From Lota lota (lineage: Eukaryota; Chordata; Actinopteri; Gadiformes; Lotidae), in NCBI GenBank assembly GCA_026745465.1, contig JACYXH010000509.1:167501-231500 (forward strand): 64,000 nucleotides of DNA, written 5' to 3'. Shown piece by piece: positions 39,973-61,017 of this stretch; positions within the stretch are counted from its first letter, which is position 1; every line of letters starts with the position of its first letter. Below the pieces are notes generated by a model. That model was given only the letters and a program-made list of their open reading frames with translations, ran no database searches and was not told where the DNA came from. The position numbers and the translations under genes are program-made.

Positions 39973-40045
39973 GGGGGATTAGCTCAAATGGTAGAGCGCT
40001 CGCTTAGCATGCGAGAGGTAGCGGGATCGATGCCCGCATCCTCCA
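39973..40045 (+). tRNA. tRNA-Ala (AGC) copy 1
   Basis: Consensus sequence. First copy of the array, with a 5' flank that is brd8 promoter sequence and not the repeat flank. Followed by the long spacer. Confidence 0.96.
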
Positions 40046-40388
40046 TACTATCCTCCTTGGGGAATGTGATGTATCATATATATACTAATAAGTGGGGCAA
40101 AAGGCTAAACCTTGTGCCTAACAGCAAGGGGATGGTGAACCATCAACCCATTTATTTATAAATGAAACTAGTTATGAACATGGAAGTTCTAATTAGTTCA
40201 AATGCAACCTTATAGGCTAAGCCTCAATAAATTAGCCTAAATTAAATGGACAAACCTCAAGAGGAATAGTGGAAATCTGTCGTTACCTTTTAAAATTCAC
40301 AAAATATTCCCTTAATTTATCAACCACAGAGCCTTCTTAAAACGGCTCCAACGACTCTGAATTGGCGGAAGGGACACAGCCTACTTAA

Positions 40389-40461
40389 GGGGGATTAGCT
40401 CAAATGGTAGAGCGCTCGCTTAGCATGCGAGAGGTAGCGGGATCGATGCCCGCATCCTCCA
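40389..40461 (+). tRNA. tRNA-Ala (AGC) copy 2
   Basis: Consensus sequence; 331-bp unit. Confidence 0.96.
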
Positions 40462-40719
40462 AAAGCAGTTTGAGAACATGGGTAGACCTACCTCATTAAT
40501 GTTTAACTTCTTTGTACTGTTAATTAATTGAACTAACTAACAGTAAGAATAGGTGATATCTGTCATTACCTTTTAAAATTCAACGCAAAGTAATGCATTC
40601 AATACATACTCCACCAACATGACGGCAGCACAAACTTTTCACTTTAATTATCAACCACAGAGCCTTCTTAAAACGGTTCCAACGACTCTGAATTGGCGGA
40701 CGGGACACAGCCTACTTAA

Positions 40720-40792
40720 GGGGGATTAGCTCAAATGGTAGAGCGCTCGCTTAGCATGCGAGAGGTAGCGGGATCGATTCCCGCATCCTCCA
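40720..40792 (+). tRNA. tRNA-Ala (AGC) copy 3
   Basis: T-loop position 60 is T (ATCGATT), which improves the B-box match; 204-bp unit. Confidence 0.95.
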
Positions 40793-40923
40793 AAAAGCTG
40801 TTTGAGAAAATGGGTAGACCAACCTCATTAATGTTTAACTTCTTTGTACTGTGAATTAATTGAACTGACTAACAGTAAGACTAGGTGATATCTGAATTGG
40901 CGGACGGGACAGAGCCTACTTAA

Positions 40924-40996
40924 GGGGGATTAGTTCAAATGGTAGAGCGCTCGCTTAGCATGCGAGAGGTAGCGGGATCGATGCCCGAATCTTCCA
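40924..40996 (+). tRNA. tRNA-Ala (AGC) copy 4, degenerate class B1
   Basis: GTTC in the D stem and CGAATCTTCC at the 3' side. Followed by the long spacer. Confidence 0.7.
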
Positions 40997-41343
40997 TACT
41001 ATCATCCTCGGGGAATGTGAGTTATCATATATATATACTAAAAAGTGGGGCAAAATGCTAAACTTTGTGCCTAACAGCAAGGGAATGGAGAACCATCAAC
41101 CCATTTATTAATAAATGAAACTAGTTATGAACATGGAAGTTCTAATTAGTTCAAATGCAACCTTATAGGCTAAGCCTCAATAAATTAGCCTCAATTAAAT
41201 GGACAAACCTCAAGAGGAATAGTGGAAATCTGTCGTTACCTTTTAAAATTCACACAAAATATTCCCTTAATTTATCAACCACAGAGCCTTCTTAAAACGG
41301 CTCCAACGACTCTGAATTGGCGGACGGGACACAGCCTACTTAA

Positions 41344-41416
41344 GGGGGATTAGCTCAAATGGTAGAGCGCTCGCTTAGCATGCGAGAGGTAGCGGGATCG
41401 ATGCCCGCATCCTCCA
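41344..41416 (+). tRNA. tRNA-Ala (AGC) copy 5
   Basis: Consensus sequence, followed by the long spacer. With copies 6-8 it repeats the layout of copies 1-4. Confidence 0.96.
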
Positions 41417-41761
41417 TACTATCCTCCTTGGGGAATGTGATGTATCATATATATACTAATAAGTGGGGCAAAAGGCTAAACCTTGTGCCTAACAGCAAGG
41501 GGATGGTGAACCATCAACCCATTTATTTATAAATGAAACTAGTTATGAACATGGAAGTTCTAATTAGTTCAAATGCAACCTTATAGGCTAAGCCTCAATA
41601 AATTAGCCTAAATTAAATGGACAAACCTCAAGAGGAATAGTGGAAATCTGTCGTTACCTTTTAAAATTCACACAAAATATTCCCTTAATTTATCAACCAC
41701 AGAGCCTTCTTAAAACGGCTCCAACGACTCTGAATTGGCGGAAGGGACACAGCCTACTTAA

Positions 41762-41834
41762 GGGGGATTAGCTCAAATGGTAGAGCGCTCGCTTAGCATG
41801 CGAGAGGTAGCGGGATCGATGCCCGCATCCTCCA
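41762..41834 (+). tRNA. tRNA-Ala (AGC) copy 6
   Basis: Consensus sequence; 331-bp unit. Confidence 0.96.
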
Positions 41835-42092
41835 AAAGCAGTTTGAGAACATGGGTAGACCTACCTCATTAATGTTTAACTTCTTTGTACTGTTAATTAA
41901 TTGAACTAACTAACAGTAAGAATAGGTGATATCTGTCATTACCTTTTAAAATTCAACGCAAAGTAATGCATTCAATACATACTCCACCAACATGACGGCA
42001 GCACAAACTTTTCACTTTAATTATCAACCACAGAGCCTTCTTAAAACGGTTCCAACGACTCTGAATTGGCGGACGGGACACAGCCTACTTAA

Positions 42093-42165
42093 GGGGGATT
42101 AGCTCAAATGGTAGAGCGCTCGCTGAGCATGCGTGAGGTAGCGGGATCGATGCCCGCATCCTCCA
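42093..42165 (+). tRNA. tRNA-Ala (AGC) copy 7, damaged anticodon arm
   Basis: The invariant T33 before the anticodon is G, and A42 is T, giving a mismatch in the anticodon stem. Decoding is probably impaired. Confidence 0.75.
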
Positions 42166-42296
42166 AAAAGCTGTTTGAGAAAATGGGTAGACCAACCTCA
42201 TTAATGTTTAACTTCTTTGTACTGTGAATTAATTGAACTGACTAACAGTAAGACTAGGTGATATCTGAATTGGCGGACGGGACTGAGCCTACTTAA

Positions 42297-42369
42297 GGGG
42301 GATTAGTTCAAATGGTAGCGCGCTCGCTTAGCATGCGAGAGGTAGTGGGATCGATGCCCGAATCTTCCA
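42297..42369 (+). tRNA. tRNA-Ala (AGC) copy 8, degenerate class B1
   Basis: Class B1 changes plus A23 to C in the D stem and C50 to T. Confidence 0.65.
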
Positions 42370-42714
42370 TACTATCATCCTCTGGGAATGTGAGGTATCA
42401 TATATATACTAAAAAGTGGGGCAAAATGCTAAACTTTGTGCCTAACAGCAAGGGAATGGAGAACCATCAACCCATTTATTAATAAATGAAACTAGTTATG
42501 AACATGGAAGTTCTAATTAGTTCAAATGCAACCTTATAGGCCAAGCCTCAATAAATTAGCCTCAATTAAATGGACAAACCTCAAGAGGAATAGTGGAAAT
42601 CTGTCGTTACCTTTTAAAATTCACACAAAATATTCCCTTAATTTCTCAACCACAGAGCCTTCTTAAAACGGCTCCAACGACTCTGAATTGGCGGACGGGA
42701 CACAGCCTACTTAA

Positions 42715-42787
42715 GGGGGATTAGCTCAAATGGTAGAGCGCTCGCTTAGCATGCGAGAGGTAGCGGGATCGATGCCCGCATCCTCCA
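42715..42787 (+). tRNA. tRNA-Ala (AGC) copy 9
   Basis: Consensus sequence; 204-bp unit. Confidence 0.96.
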
Positions 42788-42918
42788 AAAAGCTGTTTGA
42801 GAAAATGGGTAGACCAACCTCATTAATGTTTAACTTCTTTGTACTGTGAATTAATTGAACTGACTAACAGTAAGAATAGGTGATATCTGAATTGGCGGAC
42901 GGGACAGAGCCTACTTAA

Positions 42919-42991
42919 GGGGGATTAGTTCAAATGGTAGAGCGCTCGCTTAGCATGCGAGAGGTAGCGGGATCGATGCCCGAATCTTCCA
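42919..42991 (+). tRNA. tRNA-Ala (AGC) copy 10, degenerate class B1
   Basis: Class B1 changes; long spacer follows. Confidence 0.7.
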
Positions 42992-43338
42992 TACTATCAT
43001 CCTCGGGGAATGTGAGTTATCATATATATATACTAAAAAGTGGGGCAAAATGCTAAACTTTGTGCCTAACAGCAAGGGAATGGAGAACCATCAACCCATT
43101 TATTAATAAATGAAACTAGTTATGAACATGGAAGTTCTAATTAGTTCAAATGCAACCTTATAGGCTAAGCCTCAATAAATTAGCCTCAATTAAATGGACA
43201 AACCTCAAGAGGAATAGTGGAAATCTGTCGTTACCTTTTAAAATTCACACAAAATATTCCCTTAATTTATCAACCACAGAGCCTTCTTAAAACGGCTCCA
43301 ACGACTCTGAATTGGTGGACGGGACAGAGCCTACTTAA

Positions 43339-43411
43339 GGGGGATTAGCTCAAATGGTAGAGCGCTCGCTTAGCATGCGAGAGGTAGCGGGATCGATGCC
43401 CGCATCCTCCA
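43339..43411 (+). tRNA. tRNA-Ala (AGC) copy 11
   Basis: Consensus sequence; 331-bp unit. Confidence 0.96.
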
Positions 43412-43669
43412 AAAGCAGTTTGAGAACATGGGTAGACCTACCTCATTAATGTTTAACTTCTTTGTACTGTTAATTAATTGAACTAACTAACAGTAAGAAT
43501 AGGTGATATCTGTCATTACCTTTTAAAATTCAACGCACAGTAATGCATTCAATACATACTCCTCCAACATGACGGCAGCACAAACTATTCCCTTTAATTA
43601 TCAACCACAGAGCCTTCTTAAAACGGCTCCAACGACTCTGAATTGGCGGACGGGACAGAGCTTACTTAA

Positions 43670-43742
43670 GGGGGATTAGCTCAAATGGTAGAGCGCTCGC
43701 TTAGCATGCGAGAGGTAGCGGGATCGATGCCCGCATCCTCCA
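43670..43742 (+). tRNA. tRNA-Ala (AGC) copy 12
   Basis: Consensus body although the long-type spacer (476-bp unit) follows. Confidence 0.96.
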
Positions 43743-44145
43743 ATACTATCATCCTCAGGGAATGTGAGGTATCATATATATACTTAAAAGTGGGGCAAAA
43801 GGCTAAACCTTGTGCCTAACAGCAAGTGGATGGAGAACCATCAACCCATTCTTTTATAAATGAAACTAGTTATGAACATGGAAGTTGTAATTAGTTCAAA
43901 TGCAACCTTATAGTATTAGCCTCAATAAATTAGCCTCAATTAAATGGACAAACTTCAAGAAGAATAGGTGAAATCTGTTGTTACCTTTTAAAATTCAATT
44001 AAAATTCAACGTACAGTAATGTTTTCAATCCATAATGCACCAACATGACGGCAGCACAAACTATTCCCTTTTATTATCAACCACAGAGCCTTCTTAAAAC
44101 GGCTCCAACCACTCTGAATTGGTGGACGGGACACAGCCGACTTAA

Positions 44146-44218
44146 GGGGGATTAGCTCAAATGGTAGAGCGCTCGCTTAGCATGCGAGAGGTAGCGGGAT
44201 CGATGCCCGCATCCTCCA
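44146..44218 (+). tRNA. tRNA-Ala (AGC) copy 13
   Basis: Consensus sequence; 330-bp unit. Confidence 0.96.
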
Positions 44219-44475
44219 AAAGCCGTTTGAGAACATGGGTAGGCCTACCTCATTAATGTTTAACTTCTTTGTATTTTAATTAATTGAACTAACTAACAGT
44301 AAGAATAGGTGATATCTGTCATTACCTTATAAAATTCAACGCACAGTAATGCATTCAATACATACTCCACCAACATGACGGCAGCACAAACTTTTCACTT
44401 TAATTATCAACCACAGAGCCTTCTTAAAAGGGTTCCAACGACTCTGAATTGGCGGACGGGACAGAGCCTACTTAA

Positions 44476-44548
44476 GGGGGATTAGTTCAAATGGTAGAGC
44501 GCTCGCTTAGCATGCGAGAGGTAGCGGGATCGATGCCCGAATCTTCCA
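44476..44548 (+). tRNA. tRNA-Ala (AGC) copy 14, degenerate class B1
   Basis: Class B1 changes; long spacer follows. Confidence 0.7.
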
Positions 44549-44893
44549 TACTATCATCCTCGGGGAATGTGAGTTATCATATATATACTAAAAAGTGGGG
44601 CAAAATGCTAAACTTTGTGCCTAACCGCAAGGGAATGGAGAACCATCAACCCATTTATTAATAAATGAAACTAGTTATGAACATGGAAGTTCTAATTAGT
44701 TCAAATGCAACCTTATAGGCTAAGCCTCAATAAATTAGCCTCAATTAAATGGACAAACCTCAAGAGGAATAGTGGAAATCTGTCGTTACCTTTTAAAATT
44801 CACACAAAATATTCCCTTAGTTTATCAACCACAGAGCCTTCTTAAAACGCCTCCAACGACTCTGAATTGGCGGACGGGACACAGCCTACTTAA

Positions 44894-44966
44894 GGGGGAT
44901 TAGCTCAAATGGTAGAGCGCTTGCTTAGCATGCGAGAGGTAGCGGGATCGATGCCCGCATCCTCCA
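44894..44966 (+). tRNA. tRNA-Ala (AGC) copy 15
   Basis: C29 to T gives a tolerated G-U pair in the anticodon stem; 331-bp unit. Confidence 0.94.
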
Positions 44967-45224
44967 AAAGCAGGTTGAGAATATGGGTAGACCTACCTCA
45001 TTAATGTTTAACTTCTTTGTACTGTTAATTAATTGAACTAACTAACAGTAAGAATAGGTGATATCTGTCATTACCTTTTAAAATTAAACGCACAGTAATG
45101 CATTCAATACATACTCCACACACATGACGGCAGCACAAACTATTCACTTTAATAATCAACCACTGAGCCTTCTTAAAACGGCTCCAATGACTCTGAATTG
45201 GTGGACCGGACACAGCCTACTTAA

Positions 45225-45297
45225 GGGGGATTAGCTCAAATGGTAGAGCGCTCGCTTAGCATGCGAGAGGTAGCGGGATCGATGCCCGCATCCTCCA
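45225..45297 (+). tRNA. tRNA-Ala (AGC) copy 16
   Basis: Consensus sequence; 204-bp unit. Confidence 0.96.
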
Positions 45298-45428
45298 AAA
45301 AGCTGTTTGAGAACATGGGTAGACCAACCTCATTAATGTTGAACTTCTTTGTACTGTGAATTAATTGAACTGACTAACAGTAAGAATAGGTGATATCTGA
45401 ATTGGCGGACGGGACAGAGCCTACTTAA

Positions 45429-45501
45429 GGGGGATTAGCTCAAGTGGTAGAGCGCTCGCTTAGCATGCGAGAGGTAGCGGGATCGATGCCCGCATCCTCC
45501 A
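45429..45501 (+). tRNA. tRNA-Ala (AGC) copy 17
   Basis: D-loop A to G (CAAGTGG); otherwise consensus. Confidence 0.95.
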
Positions 45502-45759
45502 AAAGCTGTTTAAGAACATGGGTAGACTGACCTCATTAATGTTTAACTTCTTTGTACTGTTAATTAATTGAACTAACTAACAGTAAGAATAGGTGATATC
45601 TGTCATTACCTTATAAAATTCAACGCACAGTAATGCATTCAAAACATGCTCCACCAACATGACGGCAGCACAAACTATTCCCTTTAATTATCATCCACAG
45701 AGCCTTCTTAAAACGGTTCCAACGACTCTGAATTGGCGGACGGGACACAGCCTACTTAA

Positions 45760-45832
45760 GGGGGATTAGCTCAAATGGTAGAGCGCTCGCTTATCATGCG
45801 AGAGGTAGCGGGATCGATGCCCGCATCCTCCA
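45760..45832 (+). tRNA. tRNA-Ala body with ATC anticodon, copy 18
   Basis: G35 to T at 45794 turns AGC into ATC (45793-45795), an aspartate-codon anticodon. The rest is consensus, including the G3:U70 alanine identity pair. If expressed it could insert alanine at Asp codons. Confidence 0.9.
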
Positions 45833-46090
45833 AAAGCAGTTTGAGAACATGGGTAGGCCTACCTCATTAATGTTTAACTTCTTTGTACTGTTAATTAATT
45901 GAACTAACTAACAGTAAGAATAGGTGATATCTGTCATTACCTTTTAAAATTCAACGCACAGTAATGCATTCAATACATACTCCACCAACATGACGGCAGC
46001 ACAAACTTTTCACTTTAATTATCAACCACAGAGCCTTCTTAAAAGGGTTCCAACGACTCTGAATTGGCGGACGGGACAGAGCCTACTTAA

Positions 46091-46163
46091 GGGGGATTAG
46101 TTCAAATGGTAGAGCGCTCGCTTAGCATGCGAGAGGTAGCGGGATCGATGCCCGAATCTTCCA
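46091..46163 (+). tRNA. tRNA-Ala (AGC) copy 19, degenerate class B1
   Basis: Class B1 changes; long spacer follows. Confidence 0.7.
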
Positions 46164-46508
46164 TACTATCATCTTCGGGGAATGTGAGTTATCATATATA
46201 TACTAAAAAGTGGGGCAAAATGCTAAACTTTGTGCCTAACCGCAAGGGAATGGAGAACCATCAACCCATTTATTAATAAATGAAACTAGTTATGAACATG
46301 GAAGTTCTAATTAGTTCAAATGCAACCTTATAGGCTAAGCCTCAATAAATTAGCCTCAATTAAATGGACAAACCTCAAGAGGAATAGTGGAAATCTGTCG
46401 TTACCTTTTAAAATTCACACAAAATATTCCCTTAGTTTATCAACCACAGAGCCTTCTTAAAACGCCTCCAACGACTCTGAATTGGCGGACGGGACACAGC
46501 CTACTTAA

Positions 46509-46581
46509 GGGGGATTAGCTCAAATGGTAGAGCGCTCGCTTAGCATGCGAGAGGTAGCGGGATCGATGCCTGCATCCTCCA
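46509..46581 (+). tRNA. tRNA-Ala (AGC) copy 20
   Basis: C63 to T gives a G-U pair in the T stem; otherwise consensus. Confidence 0.94.
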
Positions 46582-46839
46582 AAAGCAGTTTGAGAACATG
46601 GGTAGACCTACCTCATTAATGTTTAACTTCTTTGTACTGTTAATTAATTGAACTAACTAACAGTAAGAATAGGTGATATCTGTCATTACCTTTTAAAATT
46701 CAACGCACAGTAATGCATTCAATACATACTCCTCCAACATGACGGCAGCACAAACTATTCCCTTTAATTATCAACCACAGAGCCTTCTTAAAACGGCTCC
46801 AACGACTCTGAATTGGTGGACGGGACACAGCCTACTTAA

Positions 46840-46912
46840 GGGGGATTAGCTCAAATGGTAGAGCGCTCGCTTAGCATGCGAGAGGTAGCGGGATCGATGC
46901 CCGCATCCTCCA
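46840..46912 (+). tRNA. tRNA-Ala (AGC) copy 21
   Basis: Consensus sequence. Starts a 1,615-bp block (copies 21-25) that recurs, at least in part, from copy 26. Confidence 0.96.
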
Positions 46913-47170
46913 AAAGCAGTTTGAGAACATGGGTAGACCTACCTCATTAATGTTTAACTTCTTTGTACTGTTAATTAATTGAACTAACTAACAGTAAGAA
47001 TAGGTGATATCTGTCATTTCCTTTTAAAATTAAACGCACAGTAATGCATTCAAAACATACTCCACACACATGACGGCAGCACAAACTATTCACTTTAATA
47101 ATCAACCACTGAGCCTTCTTAAAACGGCTCCAATGACTCTGAATTGGTGGACCGGACACAGCCTACTTAA

Positions 47171-47243
47171 GGGGGATTAGCTCAAATGGTAGAGCGCTCG
47201 CTTAGCATGCGAGAGGTAGCGGGATCGATGCCCGCATCCTCCA
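47171..47243 (+). tRNA. tRNA-Ala (AGC) copy 22
   Basis: Consensus sequence; 204-bp unit. Confidence 0.96.
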
Positions 47244-47374
47244 AAAAGCTGTTTGAGAACATGGGTAGACCAACCTCATTAATGTTTAACTTCTTTGTAC
47301 TGTGAATTAATTGAACTGACTAACAGTAAGAATAGGTGATATCTGAATTGGCGGACGGGACAGAGCCTACTTAA

Positions 47375-47447
47375 GGGGGATTAGCTCAAGTGGTAGAGCG
47401 CTCGCTTAGCATGCGAGAGGTAGCGGGATCGATGCCCGCATCCTCCA
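47375..47447 (+). tRNA. tRNA-Ala (AGC) copy 23
   Basis: D-loop A to G variant. Confidence 0.95.
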
Positions 47448-47705
47448 AAAGCTGTTTAAGAACATGGGTAGACCGACCTCATTAATGTTTAACTTCTTTG
47501 TACTGTTAATTAATTGAACTAACTAACAGTAAGAATAGGTGATATCTGTCATTACCTTTTAAAATTAAACGCACAGTAATGCATTCAATACATACTCCAC
47601 ACACATGACGGCAGCACAAACTATTCACTTTAATTATCAACCACTGAGCCTTCTTAAAACGGCTCCAATGACTCTGAATTGGCGGACGGGACAGAGCCTA
47701 CTTAA

Positions 47706-47778
47706 GGGGGATTAGCTCAAATGGTAGAGCGCTCGCTTAGCATGCGAGAGGTAGCGGGATCGATGCCCGCATCCTCCA
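47706..47778 (+). tRNA. tRNA-Ala (AGC) copy 24
   Basis: Consensus sequence. Confidence 0.96.
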
Positions 47779-48036
47779 AAAGCTGTTTGAGAACATGGGT
47801 AGGCCTACCTCATTAATGTTTAACTTCTTTGTACTGTTAATTAATTGAACTAACTAACAGTAAGAATAGGTGATATCTGTCATTACCTTTTAAAATTCAA
47901 CGCACAGTAATGCATTCAATACATACTCCACCAACATGACGGCAGCACAAACTTTTCACTTTAATTATCAACCACAGAGCCTTCTTAAAAGGGTTCCAAC
48001 GACTCTGAATTGGCGGACGGGTCAGAGCCTACTTAA

Positions 48037-48109
48037 GGGGGATTAGTTCAAATGGTAGAGCGCTCGCTTAGCATGCGAGAGGTAGCGGGATCGATGCCCG
48101 AATCTTCCA
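48037..48109 (+). tRNA. tRNA-Ala (AGC) copy 25, degenerate class B1
   Basis: Class B1 changes; long spacer follows. Confidence 0.7.
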
Positions 48110-48454
48110 TACTATCATCCTCGGGGAATGTGAGTTATCATATATATACTAAAAAGTGGGGCAAAATGCTAAACTTTGTGCCTAACCGCAAGGGAATGGA
48201 GAACCATCAACCCATTTATTAATAAATGAAACTAGTTATGAACATGGAAGTTCTAATTAGTTCAAATGCAACCTTATAGGCTAAGCCTCAATAAATTAGC
48301 CTCAATTAAATGGACAAACCTCAAGAGGAATAGTGGAAATCTGTCGTTACCTTTTAAAATTCACACAAAATATTCCCTTAGTTTATCAACCACAGAGCCT
48401 TCTTAAAACGCCTCCAACGACTCTGAATTGGCGGACGGGACACAGCCTACTTAA

Positions 48455-48527
48455 GGGGGATTAGCTCAAATGGTAGAGCGCTCGCTTAGCATGCGAGAGG
48501 TAGCGGGATCGATGCCCGCATCCTCCA
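48455..48527 (+). tRNA. tRNA-Ala (AGC) copy 26
   Basis: Consensus sequence. Confidence 0.96.
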
Positions 48528-48785
48528 AAAGCAGTTTGAGAACATGGGTAGACCTACCTCATTAATGTTTAACTTCTTTGTACTGTTAATTAATTGAACT
48601 AACTAACAGTAAGAATAGGTGATATCTGTCATTTCCTTTTAAAATTAAACGCACAGTAATGCATTCAAAACATACTCCACACACATGACGGCAGCACAAA
48701 CTATTCACTTTAATAATCAACCACTGAGCCTTCTTAAAACGGCTCCAATGACTCTGAATTGGTGGACCGGACACAGCCTACTTAA

Positions 48786-48858
48786 GGGGGATTAGCTCAA
48801 ATGGTAGAGCGCTCGCTTAGCATGCGAGAGGTAGCGGGATCGATGCCCGCATCCTCCA
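48786..48858 (+). tRNA. tRNA-Ala (AGC) copy 27
   Basis: Consensus sequence; 204-bp unit. Confidence 0.96.
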
Positions 48859-48989
48859 AAAAGCTGTTTGAGAACATGGGTAGACCAACCTCATTAATGT
48901 TTAACTTCTTTGTACTGTGAATTAATTGAACTGACTAACAGTAAGAATAGGTGATATCTGAATTGGCGGACGGGACAGAGCCTACTTAA

Positions 48990-49062
48990 GGGGGATTAGC
49001 TCAAGTGGTAGAGCGCTCGCTTAGCATGCGAGAGGTAGCGGGATCGATGCCCGCATCCTCCA
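48990..49062 (+). tRNA. tRNA-Ala (AGC) copy 28
   Basis: D-loop A to G variant. Confidence 0.95.
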
Positions 49063-49320
49063 AAAGCTGTTTAAGAACATGGGTAGACCGACCTCATTAA
49101 TGTTTAACTTCTTTGTACTGTTAATTAATTGAACTAACTAACAGTAAGAATAGGTGATATCTGTCATTACCTTTTAAAATTAAACGCACAGTAATGCATT
49201 CAATACATACTCCACACACATGACGGCAGCACAAACTATTCACTTTAATTATCAACCACTGAGCCTTCTTAAAACGGCTCCAATGACTCTGAATTGGCGG
49301 ACGGGACAGAGCCTACTTAA

Positions 49321-49393
49321 GGGGGATTAGCTCAAATGGTAGAGCGCTCGCTTAGCATGCGAGAGGTAGCGGGATCGATGCCCGCATCCTCCA
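49321..49393 (+). tRNA. tRNA-Ala (AGC) copy 29
   Basis: Consensus sequence. Confidence 0.96.
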
Positions 49394-49651
49394 AAAGCTG
49401 TTTGAGAACATGGGTAGACCGACCTCATTAATGTTTAACTTCTTTGTACTGTTAATTAATTGAACTAACTAACAGTAAGAATAGGTGATATCTGTCATTA
49501 CCTTTTAAAATTCAACGCACAGTAATGCATTCAATATATACTCCACCAACATGACGGCAGCACAAACTATTCACTTTAATAATCAACCACAGAGCCTTCT
49601 TAAAACGGTTCCAACGACTCTGAATTGGCGGACGGGACACAGCCTACTTAA

Positions 49652-49724
49652 GGGGGATTAGCTCAAATGGTAGAGCGCTCGCTTAGCATGCGAGAGGTAG
49701 CGGGATCGATGCCCGCATCCTCCA
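49652..49724 (+). tRNA. tRNA-Ala (AGC) copy 30
   Basis: Consensus sequence; 204-bp unit. Confidence 0.96.
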
Positions 49725-49855
49725 AAAAGCTGTTTGAGAAAATGGGTAGACCAACCTCATTAATGTTTAACTCCTTTGTACTGTGAATTAATTGAACTGA
49801 CTAACAGTAAGAATAGGTGATATCTGAATTGGCGGACGGGACAGAGCCTACTTAA

Positions 49856-49928
49856 GGGGGATTAGTTCAAATGGTAGAGCGCTCGCTTAGCATGCGAGAG
49901 GTAGCGGGATTGATGCTCGAATCTTCCA
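49856..49928 (+). tRNA. tRNA-Ala (AGC) copy 31, degenerate class B2
   Basis: Class B changes plus C56 to T and C62 to T. The invariant B-box C is lost. First B2 copy in the array. Confidence 0.6.
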
Positions 49929-50273
49929 TACTATCATCCTCGGGGAATGTGAGTTATCATATATATACTAAAAAGTGGGGCAAAATGTTAAACTTTGTGC
50001 CTAACAGCAAGGGAATGGAGAACCATCAACCCATTTATTAATAAATGAAACTAGTTATGAACATGGAAGTTCTAATTAGTTCAAATGCAACCTTATAGGC
50101 TAAGCCTCAATAAATTAGCCTCAATTAAATGGACAAACCTCAAGAGGAATAGTGGAAATCTGTCGTTACCTTTTAAAATTCACACAAAATATTCCCTTAA
50201 TTTATCAACCACAGAGCCTTCTTAAAACGGCTCCAACGACTCTGAATTGGCGGACGGGACACAGCCTACTTAA

Positions 50274-50346
50274 GGGGGATTAGCTCAAATGGTAGAGCGC
50301 TCGCTTAGCATGCGAGAGGTAGCGGGATCGATGCCCGCATCCTCCA
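50274..50346 (+). tRNA. tRNA-Ala (AGC) copy 32
   Basis: Consensus sequence. Its spacer has the GACATACCTC variant that marks the start of each later higher-order repeat. Confidence 0.96.
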
Positions 50347-50604
50347 AAAGCAGTTTGAGAACATGGGTAGACATACCTCATTAATGTTTAACTTCTTTGT
50401 ACTGTTAATTAATTGAACTAACTAACAGTAAGAATAGGTGATATCTGTCATTACCTTTTAAAATTAAACGCACAGTAATGCATTCAATACATACTCCACC
50501 AACATGACGGCAGCACAAACTATTCACTTTAATAATCAACCACTGAGCCCTCTTAAAACGGCTCCAACGACTCGGAATTGGCGGAATGGACACAGCCTAC
50601 TTAA

Positions 50605-50677
50605 GGGGGTTTAGCTCAAATGGTAGAGCGCTCGCTTAGCATGCGAGAGGTAGCGTGATCGATGCCCGCATCCTCCA
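50605..50677 (+). tRNA. tRNA-Ala (AGC) copy 33, class C
   Basis: A6 to T and G52 to T break one acceptor pair and one T-stem pair. Confidence 0.75.
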
Positions 50678-50935
50678 AAAGCTGTTTGAGAACATGGGTA
50701 GACCTACCTCATTAATGTTTAACTTCTTTGTACTGTTACTTAATTGAACTAACTTACAGTAAGAATAGGTGATATCTGTCATTACCTTTTAAAATTAAAC
50801 GCACAGTAATGCATTCAATACATGCTCCACCAACATGACGGCAGCACAAACTATTCCCTTTAATTATCATCCACAGAGCCTTCTTAAAACGGCTCCAACG
50901 ACTCTGAATTGGTGGACGGGACACAGCCTACTTAA

Positions 50936-51008
50936 GGGGGTTTAGCTCAAATGGTAGAGCGCTCGCTTAGCATGCGAGAGGTAGCGTGATCGATGCCCGC
51001 ATCCTCCA
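50936..51008 (+). tRNA. tRNA-Ala (AGC) copy 34, class C
   Basis: Same A6 and G52 changes as copy 33. Confidence 0.75.
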
Positions 51009-51138
51009 AAAGCTGTTTGAGAACATGGGTAGACATACCTCATTAATGTTTAACTTCTTTGTACTGTTACTTAATTGAACTAACTAACAGTGAGAATAGG
51101 TGATATCTGAATTGGCGGACTGGACAGAGCCTACTTAA

Positions 51139-51211
51139 GGGGGATTAGCTCAAGTGGTAGAGCGCTCGCTTAGCATGCGAGAGGTAGCGGGATCGATGCC
51201 CGTATCCTCCA
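51139..51211 (+). tRNA. tRNA-Ala (AGC) copy 35
   Basis: D-loop A to G, and C65 to T giving a G-U pair. Confidence 0.93.
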
Positions 51212-51469
51212 AAAGCCGTTTGAGAACATGGGTAGTCCTAACTCATTAATGTTTAACTTCTTTGTACTGTTAATTAATTGAACTAACTAACAGTAAGAAT
51301 AGGTGATATCTGTCATTACCTTTTAAAATTCAACGCACAGTAATGCATTCAATACATACTCCACCAACATGACGGCAGCACAAACTATTCACTTTAATAA
51401 TCAACCACAGAGCCTTCTTAAAACGGTTCCAACGACTCTGAATTGGCGGACGGGACACAGCCTACTTAA

Positions 51470-51542
51470 GGGGGATTAGCTCAAATGGTAGAGCGCTCGC
51501 TTAGCATGCGAGAGGTAGCGGGATCGATGCCCGCATCCTCCA
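51470..51542 (+). tRNA. tRNA-Ala (AGC) copy 36
   Basis: Consensus sequence; 204-bp unit. Confidence 0.96.
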
Positions 51543-51673
51543 AAAAGCTGTTTGAGAAAATGGGTAGACCAACCTCATTAATGTTTAACTCCTTTGTACT
51601 GTGAATTAATTGAACTGACTAACAGTAAGAATAGGTGGTATCTGAATTGGCGGACGGGACAGAGCCTACTTAA

Positions 51674-51746
51674 GGGGGATTAGTTCAAATGGTAGAGCGC
51701 TCGCTTAGCATGCGAGAGGTAGCGGGATTGATGCTCGAATCTTCCA
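51674..51746 (+). tRNA. tRNA-Ala (AGC) copy 37, degenerate class B2
   Basis: Class B2 changes; long spacer follows. Confidence 0.6.
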
Positions 51747-52091
51747 TACTATCATCCTCGGGGAATGTGAGTTATCATATATATACTAAAAAGTGGGGCA
51801 AAATGCTAAACTTTGTGCCTAACAGCAAGGGAATGGAGAACCATCAACCCATTTATTAATAAATGAAACTAGTTATGAACATGGAAGTTCTAATTAGTTC
51901 AAATGCAACCTTATAGGCTAAGCCTCAATAAATTAGCCTCAATTAAATGGACAAACCTCAAGAGGAATAGTGGAAATCTGTCGTTACCTTTTAAAATTCA
52001 CACAAAATATTCCCTTAATTTATCAACCACAGAGCCTTCTTAAAACGGCTCCAACGACTCTGAATTGGCGGACGGGACACAGCCTACTTAA

Positions 52092-52164
52092 GGGGGATTA
52101 GCTCAGATGGTAGAGCGCTCGCTTAGCATGCGAGAGGTAGCGGGATCGATGCCCGCATCCTCCA
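52092..52164 (+). tRNA. tRNA-Ala (AGC) copy 38
   Basis: D-loop A15 to G (CAGATGG); otherwise consensus. Confidence 0.95.
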
Positions 52165-52422
52165 AAAGCAGTTTGAGAACATGGGTAGACATACCTCATT
52201 AATGTTTAACTTCTTTGTACTGTTAATTAATTGAACTAACTAACAGTAAGAATAGGTGATATCTGTCATTACCTTTTAAAATTAAACGCACAGTAATGCA
52301 TTCAATACATACTCCACCAACATGACGGCAGCACAAACTATTCACTTTAATAATCAACCACTGAGCCTTCTTAAAACGGCTCCAACGACTCTGAATTGGC
52401 GGACCGGACACAGCCTACTTAA

Positions 52423-52495
52423 GGGGGATTAGCTCAAATGGTAGAGCGCTCGCTTAGCATGCGAGAGGTAGCGGGATCGATGCCCGCATCCTCCA
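52423..52495 (+). tRNA. tRNA-Ala (AGC) copy 39
   Basis: Consensus sequence. Confidence 0.96.
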
Positions 52496-52753
52496 AAAGC
52501 TGTTTGAGAACATGGGTAGGCCTACCTCATTAATGTTTAACTTCTTTGTACTGTTAATTAATTGAACTAACTTACAGTAAGAATAGGTGATATCTGTCTT
52601 TACCTTTTAAAATTAAACGCACAGTAATGCATTCAATACATGCTCCACCAACATGACGGCAGCACAAACTATTCCCTTTAATTATCATCCACAGAGCCTT
52701 CTTAAAACGGCTCCAACGACTCTGAATTGGTGGACGGGACACAGCCTACTTAA

Positions 52754-52826
52754 GGGGGATTAGCTCAAATGGTAGAGCGCTCGCTTAGCATGCGAGAGGT
52801 AGCGGGATCGATGCCCGCATCCTCCA
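52754..52826 (+). tRNA. tRNA-Ala (AGC) copy 40
   Basis: Consensus sequence; 204-bp unit. Confidence 0.96.
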
Positions 52827-52957
52827 AAAAGCTGTTTGAGAACATGGGTAGACCAACCTCATTAATGTTTAACTTCTTTGTACTGTGAATTAATTGAACT
52901 GACTAACAGTAAGAATAGGTGATATCTGAATTGGCGGACGGGACAGAGCCTACTTAA

Positions 52958-53030
52958 GGGGGATTAGCTCAAGTGGTAGAGCGCTTGCTTAGCATGCGAG
53001 AGGTAGCGGGATCGATGCCCGCATCCTCCA
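52958..53030 (+). tRNA. tRNA-Ala (AGC) copy 41
   Basis: D-loop A to G and C29 to T. Confidence 0.93.
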
Positions 53031-53288
53031 AAAGCTGTTTAAGAACATGGGTAGACCGACCTCATTAATGTTTAACTTCTTTGTACTGTTAATTAATTGA
53101 ACTAACTAACAGTAAGAATAGGTGATATCTGTCATTACCTTTTAAAATTAAACGCACAGTAATGCATTCAATACATACTCCACACACATGACGGCAGCAC
53201 AAACTATTCACTTTAATTATCAACCACTGAGCCTTCTTAAAACGGCTCCAATGACTCTGAATTGGCGGACGGGACAGAGCCTACTTAA

Positions 53289-53361
53289 GGGGGATTAGCT
53301 CAAATGGTAGAGCGCTCGCTTAGCATGCGAGAGGTAGCGGGATCGATGCCCGCATCCTCCA
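53289..53361 (+). tRNA. tRNA-Ala (AGC) copy 42
   Basis: Consensus sequence. Confidence 0.96.
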
Positions 53362-53619
53362 AAAGCTGTTTGAGAACATGGGTAGACCGACCTCATTAAT
53401 GTTTAACTTCTTTGTACTGTTAATTAATTGAACTAACTAACAGTAAGAATAGGTGATATCTGTCATTACCTTTTAAAATTCAACGCACAGTAATGCATTC
53501 AATATATACTCCACCAACATGACGGCAGCACAAACTATTCACTTTAATAATCAACCACAGAGCCTTCTTAAAACGGTTCCAACGACTCTGAATTGGCGGA
53601 CGGGACACAGCCTACTTAA

Positions 53620-53692
53620 GGGGGATTAGCTCAAATGGTAGAGCGCTCGCTTAGCATGCGAGAGGTAGCGGGATCGATGCCCGCATCCTCCA
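53620..53692 (+). tRNA. tRNA-Ala (AGC) copy 43
   Basis: Consensus sequence; 204-bp unit. Confidence 0.96.
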
Positions 53693-53823
53693 AAAAGCTG
53701 TTTGAGAAAATGGGTAGACCAACCTCATTAATGTTTAACTCCTTTGTACTGTGAATTAATTGAACTGACTAACAGTAAGAATAGGTGATATCTGAATTGG
53801 CGGACGGGACAGAGCCTACTTAA

Positions 53824-53896
53824 GGGGGATTAGTTCAAATGGTAGAGCGCTCGCTTAGCATGCGAGAGGTAGCGGGATTGATGCTCGAATCTTCCA
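53824..53896 (+). tRNA. tRNA-Ala (AGC) copy 44, degenerate class B2
   Basis: Class B2 changes; long spacer follows. Confidence 0.6.
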
Positions 53897-54241
53897 TACT
53901 ATCATCCTCGGGGAATGTGAGTTATCATATATATACTAAAAAGTGGGGCAAAATGCTAAACTTTGTGCCTAACAGCAAGGGAATGGAGAACCATCAACCC
54001 ATTTATTAATAAATGAAACTAGTTATGAACATGGAAGTTCTAATTAGTTCAAATGCAACCTTATAGGCTAAGCCTCAATAAATTAGCCTCAATTAAATGG
54101 ACAAACCTCAAGAGGAATAGTGGAAATCTGTCGTTACCTTTTAAAATTCACACAAAATATTCCCTTAATTTATCAACCACAGAGCCTTCTTAAAACGGCT
54201 CCAACGACTCTGAATTGGCGGACGGGACACAGCCTACTTAA

Positions 54242-54314
54242 GGGGGATTAGCTCAAATGGTAGAGCGCTCGCTTAGCATGCGAGAGGTAGCGGGATCGAT
54301 GCCCGCATCCTCCA
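54242..54314 (+). tRNA. tRNA-Ala (AGC) copy 45
   Basis: Consensus sequence. Starts a 2,481-bp eight-gene block repeated by copies 53-60. Confidence 0.96.
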
Positions 54315-54572
54315 AAAGCAGTTTGAGAACATGGGTAGACATACCTCATTAATGTTTAACTTCTTTGTACTGTTAATTAATTGAACTAACTAACAGTAAG
54401 AATAGGTGATATCTGTCATTACCTTTTAAAATTAAACGCACAGTAATGCATTCAATACATACTCCACCAACATGACGGCAGCACAAACTATTCACTTTAA
54501 TAATCAACCACTGAGCCTTCTTAAAACGGCTCCAACGACTCTGAATTGGCGGACCGGACACAGCCTACTTAA

Positions 54573-54645
54573 GGGGGATTAGCTCAAATGGTAGAGCGCT
54601 CGCTTAGCATGCGAGAGGTAGCGGGATCGATGCCCGCATCCTCCA
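54573..54645 (+). tRNA. tRNA-Ala (AGC) copy 46
   Basis: Consensus sequence. Confidence 0.96.
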
Positions 54646-54903
54646 AAAGCTGTTTGAGAACATGGGTAGGCCTACCTCATTAATGTTTAACTTCTTTGTA
54701 CTGTTAATTAATTGAACTAACTAACAGTAAGAATACGTGATATCTGTCATTACCTTTTAAAATTAAACGCACAGTAATGCATTCAATACATGCTCCACCA
54801 ACATGACGGCAGCACAATCTATTCCCTTTAATTATCAACCACTGAGCCCTCTTAAAACGGCTCCAACGACTCGGAATTGGCGGAATGGACACAGCCTACT
54901 TAA

Positions 54904-54976
54904 GGGGGTTTAGCTCAAATGGTAGAGCGCTCGCTTAGCATGCGAGAGGTAGCGTGATCGATGCCCGCATCCTCCA
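54904..54976 (+). tRNA. tRNA-Ala (AGC) copy 47, class C
   Basis: A6 to T and G52 to T. Confidence 0.75.
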
Positions 54977-55234
54977 AAAGCTGTTTGAGAACATGGGTAG
55001 ACCTACCTCATTAATGTTTAACTTCTTTGTACTGTTACTTAATTGAACTAACTTACAGTAAGAATAGGTGATATCTGTCATTACCTTTTAAAATTAAACG
55101 CACAGTAATGCATTCAATACATGCTCCACCAACATGACGGCAGCACAAACTATTCCCTTTAATTATCATCCACAGAGCCTTCTTAAAACGGCTCCAACGA
55201 CTCTGAATTGGTGGACGGGACACAGCCTACTTAA

Positions 55235-55307
55235 GGGGGATTAGCTCAAATGGTAGAGCGCTCGCTTAGCATGCGAGAGGTAGCGGGATCGATGCCCGCA
55301 TCCTCCA
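55235..55307 (+). tRNA. tRNA-Ala (AGC) copy 48
   Basis: Consensus sequence; 204-bp unit. Confidence 0.96.
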
Positions 55308-55438
55308 AAAAGCTGTTTGAGAACATGGGTAGACCAACCTCATTAATGTTTAACTTCTTTGTACTGTGAATTAATTGAACTGACTAACAGTAAGAATAGG
55401 TGATATCTGAATTGGCGGACGGGACAGAGCCTACTTAA

Positions 55439-55511
55439 GGGGGATTAGCTCAAGTGGTAGAGCGCTTGCTTAGCATGCGAGAGGTAGCGGGATCGATGCC
55501 CGCATCCTCCA
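55439..55511 (+). tRNA. tRNA-Ala (AGC) copy 49
   Basis: D-loop A to G and C29 to T. Confidence 0.93.
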
Positions 55512-55769
55512 AAAGCTGTTTAAGAACATGGGTAGACCGACCTCATTAATGTTTAACTTCTTTGTACTGTTAATTAATTGAACTAACTAACAGTAAGAAT
55601 AGGTGATATCTGTCATTACCTTTTAAAATTAAACGCACAGTAATGCATTCAATACATACTCCACACACATGACGGCAGCACAAACTATTCACTTTAATTA
55701 TCAACCACTGAGCCTTCTTAAAACGGCTCCAATGACTCTGAATTGGCGGACGGGACAGAGCCTACTTAA

Positions 55770-55842
55770 GGGGGATTAGCTCAAATGGTAGAGCGCTCGC
55801 TTAGCATGCGAGAGGTAGCGGGATCGATGCCCGCATCCTCCA
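55770..55842 (+). tRNA. tRNA-Ala (AGC) copy 50
   Basis: Consensus sequence. Confidence 0.96.
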
Positions 55843-56100
55843 AAAGCTGTTTGAGAACATGGGTAGACCGACCTCATTAATGTTTAACTTCTTTGTACTG
55901 TTAATTAATTGAACTAACTAACAGTAAGAATAGGTGATATCTGTCATTACCTTTTAAAATTCAACGCACAGTAATGCATTCAATATATACTCCACCAACA
56001 TGACGGCAGCACAAACTATTCACTTTAATAATCAACCACAGAGCCTTCTTAAAACGGTTCCAACGACTCTGAATTGGCGGACGGGACACAGCCTACTTAA

Positions 56101-56173
56101 GGGGGATTAGCTCAAATGGTAGAGCGCTCGCTTAGCATGCGAGAGGTAGCGGGATCGATGCCCGCATCCTCCA
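56101..56173 (+). tRNA. tRNA-Ala (AGC) copy 51
   Basis: Consensus sequence; 204-bp unit. Confidence 0.96.
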
Positions 56174-56304
56174 AAAAGCTGTTTGAGAAAATGGGTAGAC
56201 CAACCTCATTAATGTTTAACTCCTTTGTACTGTGAATTAATTGAACTGACTAACAGTAAGAATAGGTGATATCTGAATTGGCGGACGGGACAGAGCCTAC
56301 TTAA

Positions 56305-56377
56305 GGGGGATTAGTTCAAATGGTAGAGCGCTCGCTTAGCATGCGAGAGGTAGCGGGATTGATGCTCGAATCTTCCA
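56305..56377 (+). tRNA. tRNA-Ala (AGC) copy 52, degenerate class B2
   Basis: Class B2 changes; long spacer follows. Confidence 0.6.
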
Positions 56378-56722
56378 TACTATCATCCTCGGGGAATGTG
56401 AGTTATCATATATATACTAAAAAGTGGGGCAAAATGCTAAACTTTGTGCCTAACAGCAAGGGAATGGAGAACCATCAACCCATTTATTAATAAATGAAAC
56501 TAGTTATGAACATGGAAGTTCTAATTAGTTCAAATGCAACCTTATAGGCTAAGCCTCAATAAATTAGCCTCAATTAAATGGACAAACCTCAAGAGGAATA
56601 GTGGAAATCTGTCGTTACCTTTTAAAATTCACACAAAATATTCCCTTAATTTATCAACCACAGAGCCTTCTTAAAACGGCTCCAACGACTCTGAATTGGC
56701 GGACGGGACACAGCCTACTTAA

Positions 56723-56795
56723 GGGGGATTAGCTCAAATGGTAGAGCGCTCGCTTAGCATGCGAGAGGTAGCGGGATCGATGCCCGCATCCTCCA
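56723..56795 (+). tRNA. tRNA-Ala (AGC) copy 53
   Basis: Consensus sequence. Confidence 0.96.
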
Positions 56796-57053
56796 AAAGC
56801 AGTTTGAGAACATGGGTAGACATACCTCATTAATGTTTAACTTCTTTGTACTGTTAATTAATTGAACTAACTAACAGTAAGAATAGGTGATATCTGTCAT
56901 TACCTTTTAAAATTAAACGCACAGTAATGCATTCAATACATACTCCACCAACATGACGGCAGCACAAACTATTCACTTTAATAATCAACCACTGAGCCTT
57001 CTTAAAACGGCTCCAACGACTCTGAATTGGCGGACCGGACACAGCCTACTTAA

Positions 57054-57126
57054 GGGGGATTAGCTCAAATGGTAGAGCGCTCGCTTAGCATGCGAGAGGT
57101 AGCGGGATCGATGCCCGCATCCTCCA
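57054..57126 (+). tRNA. tRNA-Ala (AGC) copy 54
   Basis: Consensus sequence. Confidence 0.96.
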
Positions 57127-57384
57127 AAAGCTGTTTGAGAACATGGGTAGGCCTACCTCATTAATGTTTAACTTCTTTGTACTGTTAATTAATTGAACTA
57201 ACTAACAGTAAGAATAGGTGATATCTGTCATTACCTTTTAAAATTAAACGCACAGTAATGCATTCAATACATGCTCCACCAACATGACGGCAGCACAATC
57301 TATTCCCTTTAATTATCAACCACTGAGCCCTCTTAAAACGGCTCCAACGACTCGGAATTGGCGGAATGGACACAGCCTACTTAA

Positions 57385-57457
57385 GGGGGTTTAGCTCAAA
57401 TGGTAGAGCGCTCGCTTAGCATGCGAGAGGTAGCGTGATCGATGCCCGCATCCTCCA
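57385..57457 (+). tRNA. tRNA-Ala (AGC) copy 55, class C
   Basis: A6 to T and G52 to T. Confidence 0.75.
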
Positions 57458-57715
57458 AAAGCTGTTTGAGAACATGGGTAGACCTACCTCATTAATGTTT
57501 AACTTCTTTGTACTGTTACTTAATTGAACTAACTTACAGTAAGAATAGGTGATATCTGTCATTACCTTTTAAAATTAAACGCACAGTAATGCATTCAATA
57601 CATGCTCCACCAACATGACGGCAGCACAAACTATTCCCTTTAATTATCATCCACAGAGCCTTCTTAAAACGGCTCCAACGACTCTGAATTGGTGGACGGG
57701 ACACAGCCTACTTAA

Positions 57716-57788
57716 GGGGGTTTAGCTCAAATGGTAGAGCGCTCGCTTAGCATGCGAGAGGTAGCGTGATCGATGCCCGCATCCTCCA
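57716..57788 (+). tRNA. tRNA-Ala (AGC) copy 56, class C
   Basis: A6 to T and G52 to T. Confidence 0.75.
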
Positions 57789-57918
57789 AAAGCTGTTTGA
57801 GAACATGGGTAGACATACCTCATTAATGTTTAACTTCTTTGTACTGTTACTTAATTGAACTAACTAACAGTGAGAATAGGTGATATCTGAATTGGCGGAC
57901 TGGACAGAGCCTACTTAA

Positions 57919-57991
57919 GGGGGATTAGCTCAAGTGGTAGAGCGCTCGCTTAGCATGCGAGAGGTAGCGGGATCGATGCCCGTATCCTCCA
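57919..57991 (+). tRNA. tRNA-Ala (AGC) copy 57
   Basis: D-loop A to G and C65 to T, as in copy 35. Confidence 0.93.
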
Positions 57992-58249
57992 AAAGCCGTT
58001 TGAGAACATAGGTAGGCCTAACTCATTAATGTTTAACTTCTTTGTACTGTTAATTAATTGAACTAACTTACAGTAAGAATAGGTGATATCTGTCATTACC
58101 TTTTAAAATTAAACGCACAGTAATGCATTCAATACATGCTCCACCAACATGACGGCAGCACAAACTATTCCCTTTAATTATCATCCACAGAGCCTTCTTA
58201 AAACGGCTCCAACGACTCTGAATTGGTGGACGGGACACAGCCTACTTAA

Positions 58250-58322
58250 GGGGGATTAGCTCAAATGGTAGAGCGCTCGCTTAGCATGCGAGAGGTAGCG
58301 TGATCGATGCCCGCATCCTCCA
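58250..58322 (+). tRNA. tRNA-Ala (AGC) copy 58
   Basis: G52 to T breaks one T-stem pair; acceptor stem intact. Confidence 0.85.
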
Positions 58323-58580
58323 AAAGCTGTTTGAGAACATGGGTAGACCTACCTCATTAATGTTTAACTTCTTTGTACTGTTACTTAATTGAACTAACTA
58401 ACAGTAAGAATAGGTGATATCTGTCATTACCTTTTAAAATTCAACGCACAGTAATGCATTCAATACATACTCCACCAACATGACGGCAGCACAAACTATT
58501 CACTTTAATAATCAACCACAGAGCCTTCTTAAAACGGTTCCAACGACTCTGAATTGGCGGACGGGACACAGCCTACTTAA

Positions 58581-58653
58581 GGGGGATTAGCTCAAATGGT
58601 AGAGCGCTCGCTTAGCATGCGAGAGGTAGCGGGATCGATGCCCGCATCCTCCA
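58581..58653 (+). tRNA. tRNA-Ala (AGC) copy 59
   Basis: Consensus sequence; 204-bp unit. Confidence 0.96.
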
Positions 58654-58784
58654 AAAAGCTGTTTGAGAAAATGGGTAGACCAACCTCATTAATGTTTAAC
58701 TCCTTTGTACTGTGAATTAATTGAACTGACTAACAGTAAGAATAGGTGGTATCTGAATTGGCGGACGGGACAGAGCCTACTTAA

Positions 58785-58857
58785 GGGGGATTAGTTCAAA
58801 TGGTAGAGCGCTCGCTTAGCATGCGAGAGGTAGCGGGATTGATGCTCGAATCTTCCA
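58785..58857 (+). tRNA. tRNA-Ala (AGC) copy 60, degenerate class B2
   Basis: Class B2 changes; long spacer follows. Confidence 0.6.
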
Positions 58858-59202
58858 TACTATCATCCTCGGGGAATGTGAGTTATCATATATATACTAA
58901 AAAGTGGGGCAAAATGCTAAACTTTGTGCCTAACAGCAAGGGAATGGAGAACCATCAACCCATTTATTAATAAATGAAACTAGTTATGAACATGGAAGTT
59001 CTAATTAGTTCAAATGCAACCTTATAGGCTAAGCCTCAATAAATTAGCCTCAATTAAATGGACAAACCTCAAGAGGAATAGTGGAAATCTGTCGTTACCT
59101 TTTAAAATTCACACAAAATATTCCCTTAATTTATCAACCACAGAGCCTTCTTAAAATGGCTCCAACGACTCTGAATTGGCGGACGGGACACAGCCTACTT
59201 AA

Positions 59203-59275
59203 GGGGGATTAGCTCAGATGGTAGAGCGCTCGCTTAGCATGCGAGAGGTAGCGGGATCGATGCCCGCATCCTCCA
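59203..59275 (+). tRNA. tRNA-Ala (AGC) copy 61
   Basis: D-loop A15 to G, as in copy 38. Confidence 0.95.
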
Positions 59276-59533
59276 AAAGCAGTTTGAGAACATGGGTAGA
59301 CATACCTCATTAATGTTTAACTTCTTTGTACTGTTAATTAATTGAACTAACTAACAGTAAGAATAGGTGATATCTGTCATTACCTTTTAAAATTAAACGC
59401 ACAGTAATGCATTCAATACATACTCCACCAACATGACGGCAGCACAAACTATTCACTTTAATAATCAACCACTGAGCCTTCTTAAAACGGCTCCAACGAC
59501 TCTGAATTGGCGGACCGGACACAGCCTACTTAA

Positions 59534-59606
59534 GGGGGATTAGCTCAAATGGTAGAGCGCTCGCTTAGCATGCGAGAGGTAGCGGGATCGATGCCCGCAT
59601 CCTCCA
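59534..59606 (+). tRNA. tRNA-Ala (AGC) copy 62
   Basis: Consensus sequence. Confidence 0.96.
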
Positions 59607-59864
59607 AAAGCTGTTTGAGAACATGGGTAGGCCTACCTCATTAATGTTTAACTTCTTTGTACTGTTAATTAATTGAACTAACTTACAGTAAGAATAGGTG
59701 ATATCTGTCTTTACCTTTTAAAATTAAACGCACAGTAATGCATTCAATACATGCTCCACCAACATGACGGCAGCACAAACTATTCCCTTTAATTATCATC
59801 CACAGAGCCTTCTTAAAACGGCTCCAACGACTCTGAATTGGTGGACGGGACACAGCCTACTTAA

Positions 59865-59937
59865 GGGGGATTAGCTCAAATGGTAGAGCGCTCGCTTAGC
59901 ATGCGAGAGGTAGCGTGATCGATGCCCGCATCCTCCA
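59865..59937 (+). tRNA. tRNA-Ala (AGC) copy 63
   Basis: G52 to T breaks one T-stem pair. Confidence 0.85.
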
Positions 59938-60195
59938 AAAGCTGTTTGAGAACATGGGTAGACCTACCTCATTAATGTTTAACTTCTTTGTACTGTTACT
60001 TAATTGAACTAACTTACAGTAAGAATAGGTGATATCTGTCATTACCTTTTAAAATTAAACGCACAGTAATGCATTCAATACATGGTCCACCAACATGACG
60101 GCAGCACAAACTATTCCCTTTAATTATCATCCACAGAGCCTTCTTAAAACGGTTCCAACGACTCTGAATTGGCGGACGGGACACAGCCTACTTAA

Positions 60196-60268
60196 GGGGG
60201 ATTAGCTCAAATGGTAGAGCGCTCGCTTAGCATGCGAGAGGTAGCGGGATCGATGCCCGCATCCTCCA
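60196..60268 (+). tRNA. tRNA-Ala (AGC) copy 64
   Basis: Consensus sequence. Confidence 0.96.
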
Positions 60269-60526
60269 AAAGCAGTTTGAGAACATGGGTAGACCTACCT
60301 CATTAATGTTTAACTTCTTTGTACTGTTAATTAATTGAACTAACTAACAGTAAGAATAGGTGATATCTGTCATTACCTTTTAAAATTAAACGCACAGTAA
60401 TGCATTCAATACATACTCCACACACATGACGGCAGCACAAACTATTCACTTTAATAATCAACCACAGAGCCTTCTTAAAACGGTTCCAACGACTCTGAAT
60501 TGGCGGACGGGACAGAGCCTACTTAA

Positions 60527-60944: not shown

Positions 60945-61017
60945 GGGGGATTAGCTCAAATGGTAGAGCGCTCGCTTAGCATGCGAGAGGTAGCGGGATC
61001 GATGCCCGCATCCTCCA
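60945..61017 (+). tRNA. tRNA-Ala (AGC) copy 66
   Basis: Consensus sequence. Confidence 0.96.

Follow-up and report, generated by a model that had tools for sequence, protein, structure and literature searches.

A tRNA gene with an alanine body and an aspartate-type anticodon in a tandem tRNA-Ala(AGC) array of Lota lota

The window analyzed here, a 64-kb stretch (C509:167501-231500) of a 575-Mb genome of 867 contigs that was also searched, contains a tandem array of 71 full-length tRNA-Ala(AGC) genes at 39973..62681, all on the + strand, 36 of which are identical. The array was examined by a direct scan, which found the 71 full-length copies and one degenerate copy, as well as by Rfam (71 copies) and ARAGORN (64 copies). 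The degenerate 72nd copy, located at the array edge (62939), carried 18 differences, mostly in its 3' half, and ARAGORN detected no further tRNA on either side of the window, with 10 kb covered before it and 20 kb after it. The commonest spacing was 331 bases; spacings of chiefly 331, 204 and 418 bases, besides others, alternated within longer repeated blocks, and two kinds of 3' flank were distinguished (55 and 16 copies). This organization suggests that segmental duplication and conversion shaped the array. When the 228-base spacer 3' of the variant gene described below was searched against the genome, all 46 matching places were on C509, with 40 of 58 first-look candidates scored.

Individual copies and other features of the window were also recorded. 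At 63.8 bits, copy 3 (40720-40792, G60T) scored highest as a tRNA among the array copies. In copy 7 (42093-42165), neither the universal U33 (T33G) nor the U28:A42 pair is retained; it is probably not a working tRNA, although it was still called Ala-AGC by ARAGORN. Seven of the ten ORFs scanned with Pfam were matched (SAP, AAA_33, RTP801_C, bromodomain, and the mobile-element types DDE_3, RVT_1 and SCAN), and by these matches the gene content of the window is vertebrate-like. The ORF with the SCAN domain (300 aa, 63019-63921, - strand) lies just past the array and possibly encodes a retroelement-derived gag-like protein. A perfect minisatellite of 34 bases (9.5 copies, 100% matches) was found at 18792-19114.

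We characterized the 18th copy of the array, located at 45760..45832 on the + strand. Its sequence differed from the commonest array sequence (36 of the 71 copies in the direct scan) only by G35T, with T at 45794, which changes the anticodon at 45793..45795 to ATC, as the sequence-only reading had reported; the other 70 copies have AGC, and copy 18 was the only full-length copy with an anticodon change. The Rfam tRNA model (RF00005) gave 59.2 bits for copy 18 and 58.5 bits for the commonest copy, and the predicted fold of copy 18 was a full cloverleaf of -32 kcal/mol, the same energy as that of the one sister copy folded (46840). ARAGORN labeled copy 18 as tRNA-Asp. However, copy 18 was identical to the array consensus at 72 of 73 positions and to an Ala-AGC gene on contig C637 at 69 of 73, whereas its alignment with a native Asp-GTC gene gave just 38 matches in 74 columns. 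The position table placed G3 at 45762 and its partner U70 at 45829 (both +), so that the intact G3:U70 pair claimed earlier for this gene was verified; a script over the array found this alanyl-tRNA synthetase (AlaRS) identity pair in all 71 copies without exception, and in copy 18 it is accompanied by A73. Thus, of the features of a tRNA-Ala, copy 18 has the G3:U70 pair, the predicted cloverleaf and the tRNA length, but lacks an NGC anticodon. From these comparisons, the body of copy 18 is Ala, and naming such genes tRNA-Asp by the anticodon alone, as ARAGORN did here, is misleading.

In the published list for eukaryotes, Ala identity rests on G3-U70 and has no determinant in the anticodon, and Asp identity elements are G34, U35, C36, C38 and G73 (both PMC9976931). 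Copy 18 has A34, U35, C36, U38 and A73, matching only two of the five Asp bases. Because it retains G3:U70 and carries only these two Asp bases, Ala charging is a sound inference; by the published identity rules, AlaRS would charge copy 18 and AspRS should not. The premise of the earlier reading, that AlaRS uses G3:U70 rather than the anticodon and that Ala charging follows, agrees with these listed rules.

Anticodon mutation in a tRNA-Ala body is a kind of change already known from other animals, and copy 18 is a further case. In human tRNA-Ala-AGC-6-1, G35C gives the anticodon ACC at an allele frequency of 0.085, and Ala is predicted to be inserted at Gly codons (PMC6779403; also covered by PMC11415595). 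Both cases involve one substitution at position 35 of tRNA-Ala(AGC), with Ala predicted at the codons of another amino acid; unlike the human allele, copy 18 has U35 and an Asp-type anticodon, and is one copy of an array in a fish genome. Copy 18 also belongs with the "prohibited" A34 tRNA genes of two-codon boxes, which were described in the large tRNA gene sets of animals such as cow, cat and zebrafish (PMC5372738). It shares with them A34 in a two-codon box and a tRNA-gene-rich genome; the relevant section of that paper names no tRNA body, whereas the body of copy 18 is demonstrably Ala. Isotype/anticodon disagreements of this sort, in which the body model and the anticodon conflict, are flagged by tRNAscan-SE 2.0 (PMC8450103); note that this is a descriptive category rather than a mechanism. 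Gene duplication followed by anticodon mutation is also the origin of CUG-decoding tRNAs from tRNA-Ala or tRNA-Ser, which was possible because AlaRS and SerRS do not recognize the anticodon; those tRNAs are in use for CUG decoding, whereas copy 18 is only a potential decoder. Anticodon effects of tRNA-Ala variants were reportedly treated by Cozma in 2023. The excerpts of the open-licence PMC literature covered here contained no description of an Ala-body ATC gene in fish.

Regarding decoding, A34 pairs with U only, and inosine pairs with A, U and C (PMC8007984). The yeast A34 deaminase was described as efficient on A34 tRNAs with a purine at 35, a pyrimidine there being unfavored (PMC5372738), whereas a cryo-EM study described substrate selection by ADAT2/3 as sequence-independent (PMC9643335). 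Because copy 18 has the disfavored pyrimidine 35, its A34 probably stays unmodified, and it would then probably read mainly GAU. With inosine at 34, it would read GAU, GAC and, in addition, the Glu codon GAA. Of the earlier proposal that this tRNA reads both Asp codons, GAU is retained, but GAC is doubtful.

To account for the origin of the variant, we counted the distinct site changes in the 71 array tRNAs. There were 19, G35T included, which predict 0.78 anticodon hits, with a probability of at least one hit of 0.55, indicating that the variant is not beyond chance as an evolutionary event. A stem position that does not pair was found in 20 of the 71 copies and a changed universal base in 8; in total 21 copies were damaged and 50 were undamaged by the same test, indicating that single copies can decay. 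The variant needs no explanation beyond drift of single copies under relaxed constraint. The 37 units with a length of exactly 331 bases were compared, which left out 34 of the 71 copies because their next copy lies at another distance. Variable sites numbered 8 of 73 in the tRNA and 44 of 258 in the spacer, a difference that was not significant (Fisher p 0.27). Pi was 0.017 in the tRNA, below the spacer mean of 0.040, which is compatible with some selection. In the 55 copies sharing one 3' flank type, mean pairwise diversity was 0.016 in the tRNA and 0.087 in the 40 bases upstream, and downstream it was 0.054 in the first 40 bases and 0.013 at 81-118 bases, after pairs differing by 0.3 or more were removed from each stretch.

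The closest paralogous stretches of the variant unit differed from it at 6 of 358 positions (copy at 60196) and at 8 of 358 (47706 and 58250), G35T included, and the 228-base spacer after the variant scored 412 bits against itself and 407 bits against the next-best place, indicating that the change is young. It is distinctly unlikely, in our estimate, that the T at 45794 is a sequencing or assembly error or a haplotype-specific allele, in which case the variant would not be fixed in the species. Consensus errors and the collapse of copies are most likely in near-identical repeats, and the variant is one base within such a repeat, seen in one copy only. However, the base lies outside any homopolymer, and the flanking differences of the unit form their own combination relative to each paralog, so that the unit is not a simple collapse. 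Selected remoulding, in which a tRNA-Ala would be turned into a new decoder (alloacceptor shift) or into a regulated source of tRNA fragments, appears extremely improbable: shifts of anticodon from one tRNA family to another are on record for eukaryotes (PMC3923123), but copy 18 shows no Asp-ward change outside the anticodon, as is evident from its 72/73 identity to the array consensus and its 38 matches over 74 columns with Asp-GTC, and it is a single, recent copy. For the variant, we prefer the explanation that one unit of a large tandem array of tRNA-Ala(AGC) genes recently acquired a single point mutation, G to T, which would have altered position 35 of the anticodon without any change to the Ala body. 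The variant also suggests that large tRNA arrays gather anticodon mutations at roughly the rate of their other mutations.

We next consider whether the gene would be expressed. The A and B boxes, described earlier as intact, were compared with their consensus strings. The A box of copy 18 fits the consensus, and the B box fits save for A54 in place of T54. Position 54 deviates from the array consensus in none of the 71 copies; since A54 is common to all of them, "intact" holds for the B box only in the sense that it is the same as in its neighbors. The 258-base spacer between the variant and the following tRNA (45833..46090, +) has its first TTTT 109 bases away, from the 110th base past the tRNA 3' end (~45942), and before it there are only TTT at +8, +41 and +50 and TTCTTT at +47. 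None of the 71 array copies has TTTT within 50 bases. Four T are sufficient for termination in humans (PMC5356446). For comparison, we examined 103 ARAGORN tRNA genes in other genome stretches, a non-random set comprising neighborhoods of the best-scoring matches and two arrays. In these stretches, TTTT was present within 40 bases of all 45 Thr, Phe, Ser, Gly, SeC and Ala-TGC genes, and within 45 bases of 0 of 18 Ala-AGC genes on C637, 3 of 35 Lys, 1 of 2 Asp-GTC, 0 of 2 "Stop-tta" and 0 of 1 Met genes. Given that 32 of 35 Lys, all 18 C637 Ala-AGC and one of the two Asp genes have no such TTTT, a missing TTTT may not mean silence; the array may be poorly transcribed, or may terminate at TTT-type signals.

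Even if a transcript is made, it would be one among many. Exact matches to a 24-base Asp-GTC core numbered at least 267 in the genome, and these gene cores would compete with the one variant gene. Some of these cores sit in a 171-base tandem on contig C172. The earlier view of copy 18 as a natural mistranslating tRNA was sound with respect to biochemical potential, but this is only potential, with no TTTT for 109 bases, and published relatives exist. If the gene is transcribed and processed, AlaRS would be expected to load Ala, which would be inserted chiefly at Asp GAU codons. An active form of this, in which copy 18 is transcribed, for instance in the ovary, charged with Ala and used to place Ala at Asp GAU at a low, tolerated rate, seems unlikely. 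The predicted cloverleaf and G3:U70 are intact, the structure of copy 18 shows no defect and its score is as good as that of the commonest sister copies, and Ala identity includes no anticodon determinant in the list cited above (PMC9976931); moreover, a human tRNA-Ala anticodon variant reaches an allele frequency of 0.085 (PMC6779403), and maternally deposited tRNAs of zebrafish are reported to originate in repetitive regions (PMC11417395). Against this stand the absence of TTTT for 109 bases, the dilution by the 70 sisters and by 267 or more Asp-GTC cores, and the occurrence of the variant as a singleton at chance level. A 5' tRNA half sharing the first 34 bases was reported as AlaAGC in mouse (PMC11551137), and this identity indicates that the tRNA family is real in vertebrates.

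A more specific version, which we consider very unlikely, is that the array is a source of the maternal tRNA pool and that copy 18 is transcribed in oocytes, where Ala-tRNA(AUC, partly IUC) would insert Ala at GAU, and also at GAC and Glu GAA where A34 is deaminated. If this were true, a vertebrate would have a built-in, stage-limited source of Asp/Glu-to-Ala errors. More generally, copy 18, if expressed, would offer a natural vertebrate test of tolerance to Asp-to-Ala errors, and would help to show whether the "prohibited" A34 genes of large tRNA arrays ever reach the ribosome. The output of the variant would most likely be nil or negligible, because the array genes have no nearby TTTT, the variant makes up just one of the 71 copies, and competition comes from at least 267 Asp-GTC cores; copy 18 is probably silent. 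Taken as a whole, a recent chance point mutation that left the Ala body intact, with an output most likely nil or negligible, is in our judgment the probable explanation.

Further variants were sought in the genome. Whole-genome pattern searches found no second anticodon-35 variant outside copy 18, and the pattern search was lossy. Its recall on the sister AGC copies in the window was 26 of 65 with one pattern and 27 of 68 with another, so that the uniqueness of the variant outside the window is weakly supported. One exact 30-base pattern gave no match to the ATC variant in viral_contigs, and one exact 19-base pattern found no Asp-body gene with ATC in the genome. At first look, the genome had 35,586 tRNA-like candidates, 63 of which were scored. 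A second array, at C637:840001-940000, contains 18 Ala-AGC, 18 Lys-TTT and 16 Phe-GAA genes; the spacing of its Ala genes is often ~1.86 kb. In body, these Ala genes match those of the array in the window, but their spacer is a different one, and nearby TTTT is absent there too. Two tRNAs of the second array were called "Stop-tta" by ARAGORN and were rejected as ochre suppressors: they have Lys-like bodies, and their anticodon-loop letters equal those of the closest Lys-TTT copy, with 8 differences elsewhere, so that the name looks like the result of a one-base shift of the loop.
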